Virus record (IMG/VR): IMGVR_UViG_3300019776_000079
Coordinates: 1-32,117 of that record
DNA: 32,117 bases
From: a virus
Direction: 5' to 3' (one strand)
Positions 1,930-5,533 of the stretch are shown one piece after another. The stretch's first letter is position 1, and each line of letters begins with the position of its first letter. The notes beneath the pieces were generated by a model. That model searched no databases and had not been told where the DNA came from. It was given only the letters and a program-made list of their open reading frames with translations. A program made the translations under genes and the position numbers.

Positions 1930-2326
1930 ATCGTTGTTTTGTTATTCTATCAAATTCTATCAAGTCACTTGCTTTGCTGACTGCATTGATAATCGTAGAA
2001 TGGTCTCGTGTGAGTATTCTACCAATCTCAGTCAAAGATATACACAAATGCTTTCTACATAAATAGCAAAACATATGTCGTGCAAATACAAACTCTTGTT
2101 TGCGACTTTGCGATTGTATTTCATCAGGTGTCATATTGAATACTTGACAAACTGCTTTCATGACATCGTGCCATGTTTGCTCATTCTTTTTGATATCGAG
2201 TCTAGGTTGTACTATCTCTTTTCTCAAACGCTTTACTTCTTCTGCATGCTTCTTCTGCATGTCGTAAATGATGAGTTTTAAGCGCTTGTTTTCTTGTCGA
2301 AGATTGTGTTGTTCGTTGTAGTTCAT
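1853..2326 (-). CDS. DnaA C-terminal-domain (domain IV)-like DNA-binding protein
   Basis: A 157-aa protein. The first 40 residues are a basic coiled coil (QENKRLKLIIYDMQKKHAEE). Residues about 60-140 match the DnaA domain IV pattern: VFNMTPDEIQSQSRKQEFVFARH, then the signature SLTEIGRILTRDHSTIINAV, where TRDHSTI/V is the DnaA-box recognition loop. The AAA+ ATPase domain is absent, so it could bind DnaA boxes in the host or phage origin but could not act as a full initiator. It may compete with host DnaA or load replication proteins at the phage origin. It lies in the replication operon; the start overlaps the glycosyltransferase stop as ATGA. Confidence 0.85.
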   Translation of the reverse strand: MNYNEQHNLRQENKRLKLIIYDMQKKHAEEVKRLRKEIVQPRLDIKKNEQTWHDVMKAVCQVFNMTPDEIQSQSRKQEFVFARHMFCYLCRKHLCISLTEIGRILTRDHSTIINAVSKASDLIEFDRITKQRYEFTMELLGRYLHEKGNSLYTFVEH

Positions 2327-3150
2327 ATCAGTTTGATTAATTTCATTCCATAGTTATCAATGCAATTCTCAATTTTAATGTCTTGCTTCTTGATGAGTTT
2401 GCTTTTAAATCTAGAGTAGTCTACTTCGTGATGCCATCTGTCATAACGCCATACAACTTGAGCGCAGTCAGGATGTTGTCTAACTAAAGATTCAGCGAAC
2501 TCTCTTCTATTGTCACCTGTGTTGTAGATTGTATCTGTATTGCCACCTTTCATTTTGAGTGTGCCTACTTTATTGCATAAGAATGCTTTGAATAACATTG
2601 TGACATATCCATCTTTTAAAATTCGCAGACTCAAATCTGTGTCTTCATTGTATCTACCTCGCCAACGATGCGAGATGCTGTTGTCTAATAAAATGCACGA
2701 ATAGATGCGTGTGTTTAAAACATAAGGAGGCATTTTAACTCTCTCAGGTGCAAAGTACCGATAGTCCATGCCTGCCATTGCTATATTTTCGTATCTATCT
2801 ACAAAGTCTTCTATCGCTCTGAATGTAGCATTTGAATCTACTTTGATTTTACGATTGCGATTTAATCGAATAAAGCCATCGATATTGTCGTCTAAAATCC
2901 AATGTCTTTTAAATCCACGCTCGATTGAGTTTTCAAATACCCAATTTCTAGCAGGTATTGAACCTTGGCCTAAATTAGAAAACGGCAACACAAGTATTTT
3001 GTTTTCATCAATCACGCTTGCATAGTCATTATACTCTTGCTCTTCTATGACAATAAAATAGTCTGTATTCATTTTCTCAAGTGCTTTGCTTGTTAAGCGA
3101 GAATCTGCACGACCTTTTGAGATGATGTATATAGGATATTTAGTCTTCAT
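2323..3150 (-). CDS. TET-associated-type glycosyltransferase (TAGT family)
   Basis: A 275-aa GT-A fold protein starting MKTKYPIYIISKGR (ATG at 3148-3150; an upstream ATG at 3180 would overlap the previous gene more). Visible family features are PIYIISKGRADSRLT at the nucleotide-sugar site, VIEEQEYNDY, NLGQGSIPARNW, HWILDDNIDGF (the DDN plays the DxD metal-binding role) and RGRYNEDTDLSLRIL with an acidic catalytic-type ED. Phage members of this family were proposed by comparative genomics to glycosylate modified bases in DNA. No base hydroxylase or hydroxymethylase is visible here, so the acceptor is open. Tightly coupled to replication genes, which fits DNA modification. Confidence 0.7.
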   Translation of the reverse strand: MKTKYPIYIISKGRADSRLTSKALEKMNTDYFIVIEEQEYNDYASVIDENKILVLPFSNLGQGSIPARNWVFENSIERGFKRHWILDDNIDGFIRLNRNRKIKVDSNATFRAIEDFVDRYENIAMAGMDYRYFAPERVKMPPYVLNTRIYSCILLDNSISHRWRGRYNEDTDLSLRILKDGYVTMLFKAFLCNKVGTLKMKGGNTDTIYNTGDNRREFAESLVRQHPDCAQVVWRYDRWHHEVDYSRFKSKLIKKQDIKIENCIDNYGMKLIKLI

Positions 3151-3403
3151 TTGTGTAGATAAAACTTGATGGTTTTTCAAGACCTAGTTTTGGCACCCAT
3201 AAACTTTTAGTCTTATATGTAATTCGTTGTTCAATCAAAAGAGCAAAATTGTCCCTATCTTCTTTTGTTTCAAAATGAATGATGACAGATTGAAACGGCT
3301 GAGCGTCTTCTTGTACAAATTCAGGCATTGATTGCCATTCTCGTTTCCAATCTTCTTCGCTACCAAGAGCATCAAAAAGATTCATTTGTTTGTTGTCTTT
3401 CAT
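3140..3403 (-). CDS. Conserved small protein paired with the glycosyltransferase
   Basis: An 87-aa protein with EWQSMPEFVQED at residues 22-33, then a ferredoxin-like pattern (QSVIIHFETKEDRDNFALLI) and QRITYKTKSLWVPK. I recall this 'MPEFVQED ... ITxKTKSLWxP' protein in many phages, often near DNA-modification or ParB-like genes, always uncharacterised. It overlaps the DnaB stop by 4 bases and the glycosyltransferase start by 11. The tight pairing suggests a shared role, for example as an accessory or targeting subunit, but this is inference. Confidence 0.8.
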   Translation of the reverse strand: MKDNKQMNLFDALGSEEDWKREWQSMPEFVQEDAQPFQSVIIHFETKEDRDNFALLIEQRITYKTKSLWVPKLGLEKPSSFIYTNED

Positions 3404-4635
3404 ATTTTCTGTTTGTATTCAGTTCTTTCTCCTATGAATTGCGTATCGATTGTAACGCTTTCACCATGACGATTTTTTGCTATTATCAACTCGCTATCTT
3501 CAATCTGTGGTTTCTCGCCTTGCTCATAGTACGCAGGTCTAAACGGAAACATTATCACATCAGCATCTTGCTCTACACTACCACTCTCACGAATGTCTGA
3601 TAGCATTGGTCGTTTATCTGCTCTCTCTTCACATTTACGACTTAATTGAGCAAGTACAATTATAGTAATTTGTAACTCTTTAGCAAGCAATTTAAGTGTG
3701 CGAGATATCTCTGCTATTTCTTGTTCTCTGTTTTGTTTAGTTCCTTTGACGAGTTGAAGATAATCGATTACAAGTAACTCAAGACCATGACGAGATTTGT
3801 GAATCTTTGCTTTCGATTTGATTTGTTGAATCGTGCAATCAGCATCGTCATCAATAAAAAATTGAATTGTTTGTGTGTTTGCAATGTTACATAGATAAGA
3901 TATCTCGTGTTGTTTTAGTGAGCCGTTGCGTATCTTCCAATTTGCGATGTCGCCTATCAATGAAATATATCTCTTTGCAAGTTGCTCGTTTGACATTTCG
4001 AGTGATAAGAAGAGCGCTTTGCCTCCTACTTCTGCGAATACTTTTGTGAGCGTTAACGCAAGCGCTGTTTTCCCCATTCCGGGACGACCTGCTAAGACAA
4101 TCAAATCGCCTCGATTATATCCACCTAAGATTCTGTCGAGAGATGACCATCCTGTTTGACGACCTGTTATCTTGTCGCCACGCTCAATGCCTTCGAGTAT
4201 AGTATCAACGACTTGATTTGTTACTTTAATAATCGATTTAGGGTCTTTTGCGCTACTCGTTTGACTTTCATCTATCAAGAGTTGAGTGTATGCAATTAAG
4301 TCGCTTAGAGACGCTGAAATGTTTATTTCTTGAATCTTAGATATGAACTTCTTTTGTAGATAATTTGATTCAAGTTCATATAGATAGCGTTGCACATTAG
4401 GCACCCCGTACACATTCTGTTGCATCTGTACGACTTTGATAATCTCAGTGCGTGAGAACTTACGAGATAAAGTCACAATGTCAATCGCTTCATTCTCAAA
4501 ATACATCAAAGTCAATACATCAATGATTTTACGATTTAGTTCATCGTTGAACCATTCTTTCTTCATCTTTGGTAGCAATGCTCGCTCGCTATCATAGAAG
4601 AGTATTTGTGAAACTACATAGTCTTCGCTATTCAT
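3400..4635 (-). CDS. dnaB: Replicative DNA helicase, DnaB family
   Basis: A 411-aa helicase that unwinds DNA ahead of the fork, probably loaded by the upstream initiator-like protein. The N-terminal helical domain occupies about residues 1-110. The RecA-like motor begins near 155 (TGWSSLDRILGG). Walker A is GRPGMGKT at 183-190; Walker B is LLVIDYLQLV near 285-295; motif H4 reads DIRESGSVEQDADVIM. Length is a little below bacterial DnaB (about 450-470), as in other phage forms, with a short C terminus. The phage has no visible polymerase or primase, so host enzymes must supply those steps. Confidence 0.95.
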   Translation of the reverse strand: MNSEDYVVSQILFYDSERALLPKMKKEWFNDELNRKIIDVLTLMYFENEAIDIVTLSRKFSRTEIIKVVQMQQNVYGVPNVQRYLYELESNYLQKKFISKIQEINISASLSDLIAYTQLLIDESQTSSAKDPKSIIKVTNQVVDTILEGIERGDKITGRQTGWSSLDRILGGYNRGDLIVLAGRPGMGKTALALTLTKVFAEVGGKALFLSLEMSNEQLAKRYISLIGDIANWKIRNGSLKQHEISYLCNIANTQTIQFFIDDDADCTIQQIKSKAKIHKSRHGLELLVIDYLQLVKGTKQNREQEIAEISRTLKLLAKELQITIIVLAQLSRKCEERADKRPMLSDIRESGSVEQDADVIMFPFRPAYYEQGEKPQIEDSELIIAKNRHGESVTIDTQFIGERTEYKQKI

Positions 4636-5200
4636 ATTCGCTAGGGTTATACGCTTTAGGTTTGTTATAAACTACTTGTGCTTGTTTTAAGTGATTAGGC
4701 TTCCATGTTCGCACTGCTGATTTCCAATCTTTCATTTTGTTTTTACCGATGAGCCAACCTTTAGATTCATAAAAGTCAAAAAATTTGTTTGATACATCTA
4801 GCATGTCTTGAGAAATCATATATTCTCTCAACTCATCTAGAGTTGGTTTAACAAATACTCTTTTATTTATATCTTTATCTTTATCATTATCAGTATCATT
4901 ATCATTATCGGCATTTTTCGTATCGTTTCGCATGCGGTCGTATGCGGTCGCATCCCATCGCTTACGAGCGTTATCCGAATTGCGCTTTCGTATGTCTTCG
5001 TACTTTACTAAATCTCTTTTAAGTTGCTGTTTGATAGGCTCAAAAGCAATCTTTGTGATGATATTATCTGTCTCAGGATTCTTGTCATTCACATATTGTA
5101 GTATGTGCTTAAACAAGTTACCGGCTTGTTCGTCAGTAAGTTGCTCTATCACATTTATTAAATCGCAATAGAGAAGAAATGATTTTTTGTCTTGTGCCAT
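4628..5200 (-). CDS. Replication initiator / helicase-loader-like protein
   Basis: A 190-aa protein. The N terminus (LLYCDLINVIEQLTDEQAGNLFKHI) matches the DUF6291-like domain found at the front of phage replication proteins. A low-complexity linker at about 90-112 is made of alternating D, N, T and K. The C-terminal half (LDELREYMISQDMLD...KFFDFYESKGW) resembles DnaD/DnaT-type regions that recruit helicase. The position directly before DnaB fits initiator plus loader. The linker DNA carries AT-rich hexamers and 10-base phased repeats like an internal origin (see 4868-4960). The ATG lies 4 bases after the U-run of a structured leader, which suggests controlled expression. Confidence 0.65.
   Translation of the reverse strand: MAQDKKSFLLYCDLINVIEQLTDEQAGNLFKHILQYVNDKNPETDNIITKIAFEPIKQQLKRDLVKYEDIRKRNSDNARKRWDATAYDRMRNDTKNADNDNDTDNDKDKDINKRVFVKPTLDELREYMISQDMLDVSNKFFDFYESKGWLIGKNKMKDWKSAVRTWKPNHLKQAQVVYNKPKAYNPSEYE
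4868..4960. other. Candidate replication origin inside the initiator gene
   Basis: Seven AT-rich hexamers (TATATC, TTTATC twice, ATTATC, AGTATC, ATTATC twice) fill 4868-4909. They are followed by TCG ending at 4910, 4920, 4930, 4940, 4950 and 4960, one per helical turn. The core decamers are TATCGTTTCG, CATGCGGTCG, TATGCGGTCG and CATCCCATCG. A 10-base period is not a codon multiple, so the coding sequence does not explain it. An AT-rich stretch beside iterons within the initiator gene is the arrangement of the lambda O origin. Inferred, not proven. Confidence 0.45.
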
Positions 5201-5204
5201 GAAT

Positions 5205-5297
5205 AAAAAAACCCTATCAAATTAACGCAGTAGGAGTGCGAAAATCTAATAGGGTAAATATCGTTTAACATACGAAGTCTCCTACACTTCTGTTAAC
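5205..5297 (-). ncRNA. Two-hairpin kissing-loop leader RNA / terminator-like element
   Basis: In minus-strand RNA, hairpin 1 (5296-5265) has stems UUAACA/UGUUAA and GAAGU/ACUUC, a 3-base bulge and loop GUAGGAG. Hairpin 2 (5255-5211) has a 13-bp stem (ACCCUAUUAGAUU with AAUUUGAUAGGGU), a U-U/U-U internal loop, a CGCA/UGCG stem and loop CUCCUAC. Seven U residues follow directly. The two 7-base loops are exact complements. Two pairs in hairpin 2 are G-U wobbles that would be A-C mismatches in RNA from the other strand, so the structure belongs to the coding-strand RNA. It may be a leader switch, an attenuator, or a small RNA of about 93 nt. Confidence 0.7.
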
Positions 5298-5301
5298 AAT
5301 T

Positions 5302-5332
5302 CGAAGATAGTATTTCTATTCTAAATAAAAAA
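5302..5332 (-). promoter_or_regulatory. Probable promoter of the structured leader and replication operon
   Basis: On the minus strand, TATCTTCG (5302-5309) has one mismatch to TAnnTTTG. It is preceded after 19 bases by TTTT (5329-5332), one mismatch to TTTG. With the usual spacing, transcription would begin near 5297, one base before hairpin 1. The match is weaker than at the four other promoters, but the spacing and position are right. Confidence 0.45.
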
Positions 5333-5533
5333 CTATTTTTTTGTTTCGATTGAATATCTGCCGTAGCCTTCTGTCTCATCACACACGATATCCATTCCTT
5401 CACGATGACGAAGAACATGTACAAGTGCGGCGAGTCTGAACGAGCCATAGAGATTTAATGCGTCAATCGGTGTGATAGATTTGCCACTTAATAAGTGATT
5501 TTTGACTTGTTTTAGTTGTGATTCTTTTTTCAT
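5333..5533 (-). CDS. Small helix-turn-helix protein (HTH_39-like)
   Basis: A 66-aa protein. Residues 5-40 read SQLKQVKNHLLSGKSITPID then ALNLYGSFRLAALVHVLR, the typical short HTH of phage 'SGKSITPxxALxxxG' proteins (Pfam HTH_39 pattern). The basic HVLRHR and the C-terminal hairpin (EGYGRYSIE) complete the fold. Likely a DNA-binding accessory or regulator. Its stop codon abuts the promoter of the replication operon, so it could act on that promoter; this is a guess from position. Confidence 0.75.
   Translation of the reverse strand: MKKESQLKQVKNHLLSGKSITPIDALNLYGSFRLAALVHVLRHREGMDIVCDETEGYGRYSIETKK

Follow-up and report, generated by a model that had tools for sequence, protein, structure and literature searches.

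Covarying, complementary hairpin loops in a predicted leader RNA ahead of the replication genes of Bacteroidota phages

Directly ahead of the replication genes of this virus, the minus strand codes for two hairpins, H1 and H2, whose seven-nucleotide loops are complementary over their whole length. The observation is confirmed, far beyond chance, and the comparison with related phages leaves us almost certain that the two loops really pair. This RNA family is widespread in Bacteroidota phages, as judged from the sequences of its members.

Two hairpins, a promoter box and a terminator tail in the window

The window (the whole 32,117-nt stretch of viral DNA analysed) had been described in a first-pass annotation as containing two hairpins with complementary seven-base loops, a U-run and a start codon, all of which we recovered at the same coordinates from sequence and fold (Table 1). 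In the RNA fold, H1 is built from a basal stem and an apical stem of 5 bp, with a bulge on the 3′ side. In H2, a UU/UU internal loop separates the 13-bp stem from a 4-bp stem that carries the 7-nt loop, and no base is claimed by both hairpins. For the 111-nt minus-strand RNA, the folding energy is −30.8 kcal/mol compared to −17.4±3.3 kcal/mol for shuffled sequences (z = −4.06, reached by 0 of 200 shuffles). Complementarity ends exactly at the loop edges, since the flanking bases form U-U and A-A mismatches. H2 fits the definition of an intrinsic terminator, being a stable hairpin with a G+C-rich base and a U-run directly after it, and the ATG of the downstream gene (position 5200) lies 4 nt past the U-run.

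The RNA had been proposed to start one base before H1. In Flavobacterium psychrophilum, the sigma-A box TAnnTTTG is located at −12 to −5 (PMC9723704); this rule puts the predicted +1 at 5297, which is the very base proposed and the one that opens GUUAAC. T1, A2, T5, T6 and G8 of the −7 box are invariant in an alignment of relatives (A2, see below), for which the motif was a scan requirement. In contrast, an upstream T/T/T/G (TTTG/TTG) box, which was no search criterion, is enriched in 46 distinct relatives at a distance of approximately 20 nt from TAnnTTTG. Of the 39 loop types, 23 have G at +1, and the H1 stem usually starts within a few nucleotides of the predicted +1, across divergent classes. 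It is strongly suggested that a Bacteroidota sigma-A promoter sets the predicted 5′ end of the RNA at H1. The claim that the element has its own promoter and an intrinsic terminator is likewise strongly suggested by the TAnnTTTG box, H2 and the U-run, in the window and in the relatives. The expected length of the RNA, predicted from +1 and the U-run, is about 93 nt.

Table 1. Positions of the predicted RNA element and of the neighbouring genes in the window.
Feature	Position	Strand	Details	Basis
−33-type box position	5329..5332	−	TTTT here, weak match to consensus TTTG/TTG	Position by analogy with relatives
−7 box	5302..5309	−	TATCTTCG; consensus TAnnTTTG, Bacteroidota sigma-A promoter	Sequence; box-position rule (PMC9723704)
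Predicted transcription start	5297	−	+1 = G	Prediction from the −12 to −5 rule
H1 hairpin	5265..5296	−	Basal stem 5296-5292/5269-5265; 3′ bulge 5273-5270; apical stem 5290-5286/5278-5274; loop 5285-5279	Fold
H1 loop	5279..5285	−	GUAGGAG (DNA GTAGGAG); 5′ half of kissing helix; partner 5236-5230	
H2 terminator hairpin	5211..5255	−	Stem 5255-5243/5223-5211; UU/UU internal loop; apical stem 5240-5237/5229-5226	Fold
H2 loop	5230..5236	−	CUCCUAC (DNA CTCCTAC); 3′ half of kissing helix	Sequence, relatives, alignment
Intrinsic terminator U-run	5205..5211	−	T-run after H2 also in relatives, but required by scans	Sequence
DUF6291 protein gene, directly downstream	4628..5200	−		PF19808, E 4e-26; weak PHROG primosomal-protein match
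DnaB-type replicative helicase, next gene	3400..4635	−		PF03796, E 9e-86
Winged-helix protein, upstream of element	5333-5533			

The position ahead of replication genes, also part of the original description, was borne out by the DUF6291 gene and the DnaB helicase gene that follow the element. The DUF6291 protein is a probable phage replication initiator or helicase loader, and relatives of it are annotated as ‘replication protein’ in Olleya phage Harreka and Flavobacterium phage elemoA. The early region of the window also codes for a TET-associated glycosyltransferase (2323-3180; PF20691, E 8e-46), hinting at hypermodified phage DNA. The phage protein encoded at 1853-2326 carries the C-terminal DNA-binding domain of DnaA (PF08299), and genes with this domain are also found in phages phi19:3, phi13:2, Harreka and tooticki.

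Relatives and covariation of the loops

The first relatives were found via the protein alone and had the same traits. Viral contigs were scanned with two kinds of protein, DUF6291 and another N-terminal type (MSKDPAVLFY, weakly DUF1376-like), which yielded more than 200 loci. Lax hairpin scans were noisy, with 786 matches compared to about 680 per shuffle, and 186 compared to about 64 per shuffle in another scan. As these counts were close to those of the shuffles or few-fold above them, the criteria were tightened to a promoter, an H1 stem, at least 6 complementary loop bases, a terminator stem and a T-run. Of 118 distinct regions ahead of DUF6291 genes, 54 carry the element by this strict scan, compared to 0/118 for shuffled regions and 5/118 for the opposite strands, the shuffle controls leaving sequence relatedness in place; the promoter, complementarity and T-run are scan criteria and thus no independent evidence within the scan set. 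By inspection, weaker versions of the element were also seen in regions scored negative (L039, L063, L190, L205, L222, L228 and L233). The set kept from all loci comprises 89 different elements, which represent about 39 loop pairs; complementarity was a search criterion, and a few of the elements may be due to chance. In these 89 elements the loops are 36-59 nt apart (mean 44, sd 4.4).

The loop words themselves vary. Relatives carry GUAGAAG/CUUCUAC, GUAGCAG/CUGCUAC, GUGCGAG/CUCGCAC, GUCGCAG/CUGCGAC, GUCAGAU/AUCUGAC, UGCGGG/CCCGCA and other pairs, and in two pairs of loci with near-identical flanks (L003 and L007, L127 and L128) the loops differ at matching positions on both sides. In alignment A2, which comprises 44 distinct rows, 85.8% of the cells of the whole structure are paired (67.3±0.8% when shuffled), 278 cells are changed on both sides (92±8 when shuffled), and the covariation score is 0.50, compared to 0.19 for shuffled rows and at most 0.19 for slid partners. 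Both-side changes occur in 15 of the 18 pairs of H2, in all five pairs of the H1 apical stem (91.8% paired) and in 5 of the 7 pairs of the kissing helix, which is 96.1% paired. The check called for at the outset, paired changes in the loops of related phages, therefore came out in favour of the element, the loops varying yet staying complementary; conserved stems with non-complementary loops, the outcome named as refuting it, were sought among the homologues and not found. The bases adjoining the loops in A2 are mostly mismatched (U-U, A-A), and this restriction of complementarity to the loops fits loop-loop kissing and not a competing long or alternative stem.

Which strand is under selection can be read from the wobble pairs. 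The stems contain 176 G-U cells compared to 41 A-C cells, indicating that the RNA of this strand is selected, as the first-pass annotation had claimed from the window; the kissing helix, with 11 G-U and 7 A-C cells, has too few for a strand call. By these comparative criteria, both hairpins and the loop-loop helix are shown to be selected as RNA. The same excess bears on a reading at the level of DNA, in which the loop words would bind a protein as an inverted repeat or belong to a replication origin, or the RNA would prime an origin. The element adjoins replication genes and is an inverted repeat by construction. However, stem G-U far exceeds A-C, the repeats fall exactly in the RNA loops, between promoter and terminator, and the GC skew, examined for an origin, revealed nothing clear and no clear switch at 5.2 kb. 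We hold this reading to be very unlikely.

Across the family the kissing helix measures 6-9 bp, some classes having larger loops of 10-14 nt with 8-9 kissing base pairs. The junction between the terminator stem and the kissing stem also differs: it is a 1-nt bulge in the A2 class, an AGUA/GAA loop-E-like module in 6 cases (including Olleya phage Harreka and Flavobacterium phage 11b) and a UGAA/GGA tandem-GA-like module in 12 cases, two of them doubtful. These names refer to sequence patterns only; neither module occurred in shuffles, and the tandem-GA pattern also matched L127/L128, where the junction is probably a different one.

Named phages carrying the element are Cellulophaga phages phi19:3 and phi13:2, Olleya phage Harreka, and Flavobacterium phages tooticki, snork, elemoA and 11b. 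The element of elemoA is closely preceded by a tRNA-Met gene (L074:866-939 and 1122-1239). The element is absent from gammaproteobacterial DUF6291 phages (PS_L5, Vibrio 1.074) and from Riemerella phage RAP44. Most chromosomal DUF6291 loci also lack it, and it is thus not needed for DUF6291 genes in general. Possible chromosomal cases are L165 and L269, which belong to one MAG and both have matching loops, L164 and L180. L164, on a Pedobacter chromosome, has a possible larger variant upstream of 2501, in which the complementary loop words are 9 nt long and an extra hairpin is inserted into a long terminator stem. Covariance model R1 returned no matches in 395 Bacteroidota genomes, a weak negative given strict filters and no positive control; among 26 genomes with DUF6291, two gave matches at E up to 1, and kissing loops were present only in the MAG of L165.

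Terminated RNA, attenuating leader or both

The reading we prefer, to which we give about an even chance, combines a terminated kissing RNA of about 93 nt with an attenuating leader of the replication operon. Host RNA polymerase would initiate from the TAnnTTTG promoter, and +1 would coincide with the first paired base of H1 or lie close to it. Once folded, H1 would catch the H2 loop with its own as H2 emerges; H2 would then zip up and end transcription, the kissing helix stabilizing or speeding the terminator fold. The product would be a compact RNA with both ends base-paired, kissing within one molecule. The replication genes would be transcribed only by read-through of H2, because the terminator lies directly before the ORF and leaves no room for another promoter, and the element would thereby double as an attenuating leader, restricting the expression of these genes or setting its timing. 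In most elements, H2 and its U-run end 0-25 nt ahead of the next ORF, an intrinsic terminator thus preceding the putatively regulated gene as in attenuators. Regulation by read-through is plausible, and a protein, phage copy number or the state of the host would be candidate influences on it. When transcripts cut after loop 2 were folded, loop-loop pairing showed up as an alternative in several folds, and no shared conserved antiterminator or mutually exclusive fold was found; the switching between termination and read-through suggested in the first-pass annotation is therefore unsupported.

Less probable, although a serious contender, is an independent small RNA, in which the terminated, end-protected kissing RNA would itself be the product and would bind a protein, RNA polymerase or another RNA, its place before the replication genes being positional only. 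Its own promoter and terminator and the predicted sealing of both ends in stems suit such a product, and the recurrent non-canonical modules suggest a defined three-dimensional shape. In tooticki and snork, which have two elements each, the second copy lies elsewhere in the early operon. The genes after the element also vary freely, including DUF6291 and DUF1376-like genes, ORFs of 67-80 aa and NUMOD4/HNH endonuclease genes, whereas the element keeps its place; it is therefore not an operator dedicated to a single protein. Where an HNH gene follows, the element may serve solely as a small-RNA gene. Against a purely positional placement, the element heads the replication module in most genomes, and its terminator abuts the next ORF in most cases, which makes read-through the only route to that gene.

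Two observations were made on these downstream genes. NUMOD4/HNH endonuclease genes or look-alike ORFs stand directly behind the element and before the replication gene at several loci (L089:2001-2504, L086, L091, L092, L151, L189, L215 and L076:196-675), as if homing endonucleases had repeatedly entered this spot. Replication proteins that differ in their N-terminal domain (DUF6291 or DUF1376-like) have an almost identical C-terminus, KFFDFYESKGWxIGKNKMKDWKSAVRTW (window 4628-5200; L018:3001-3546), which suggests swapping of initiator domains behind the same RNA.

The covariation fits pairing in cis as well as pairing in trans. Control of replication by the phage's own antisense RNA, along the RNAI/RNAII lines also suggested in the first-pass annotation, would use trans pairing: terminated copies would swap loops with nascent leaders or dimerize, with a loop code specific to every phage and every element, and initiator read-through would fall or rise with the number of phage templates, a feedback on initiator expression that grows with phage copy number. 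The fully paired 7-nt loops resemble those of the ColE1 type and the element precedes the initiator gene. The loops are also private to each element: the two elements found together in each of two groups have different loop pairs, and cross-pairing amounts to about 0 kcal/mol compared to −7 to −12 kcal/mol for self-pairing. However, the intramolecular partner is always there at a higher effective concentration, and the conserved loop spacing and hinge-like junctions suit pairing in cis. We regard the antisense reading as improbable, and the constant spacing, the hinge-like junctions and the private loops indicate that kissing is most likely intramolecular.

Leader-peptide attenuation, in which a short ORF through H2 would start from the AGGAG of loop 1 and an ATG that closely follows H1, is scarcely credible: the window does contain such a frame, but the loop word varies freely provided its partner follows, and the frame is not conserved in the alignment, some relatives having ATG-TAG at the loop and others no ATG.

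Relation to known RNAs

In ColE1, the seven-nucleotide loops of RNAI and RNAII pair over their whole length, near replication control; unlike these two antisense transcripts, the phage element has both loops in one transcript. Phi29 pRNA is a phage RNA with two interlocking complementary loops, but its size, fold and gene context differ from those of an element that is a terminator hairpin before replication genes. Rfam 15 gave no match in the window at gathering thresholds and none up to E 1 in ten loci with diverse elements, and our literature search found neither a described phage kissing-loop leader nor transcriptomes of these phages. The statement that no equivalent phage element had been described thus agrees with the Rfam and literature searches. 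HK022 putRNA, the nascent RNA of a phage early operon, suppresses pausing and termination (PMC9378689) and shares the setting of the element; however, put is not itself a terminator, whereas H2 of the phage element is itself a terminator, with kissing loops.

The nearest functional likeness is the corrinoid (cobalamin) riboswitch, in which the L5-L13 kissing loop stabilizes P13 and thereby steers terminator formation (PMC10653944). Both are leader RNAs with a loop-loop contact to the expression-platform hairpin, supported by covariation for the phage element, where this contact would likewise bear on terminator formation. The principle is common to the two and the aptamer is not: the corrinoid aptamer core is absent, and Rfam models including cobalamin gave no match in the window and the ten loci. 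The phage element is about 93 nt long, with two hairpins only and a kissing helix of 6-9 bp, its kissing loop sits on the terminator hairpin itself, and it is found at phage replication genes. On the evidence of its sequences, the element is a new RNA family, absent from Rfam, that is built on known principles.

With about 39 loop codes, this family offers unusually clear tertiary covariation. It also provides a small natural system for testing what a loop-loop contact does to an intrinsic terminator, an effect that was called unknown in 2023 for transcriptional corrinoid riboswitches (PMC10653944), and isolates with sequenced genomes carry it. For the phages of an abundant bacterial phylum, the element marks a likely control point of replication-gene expression.
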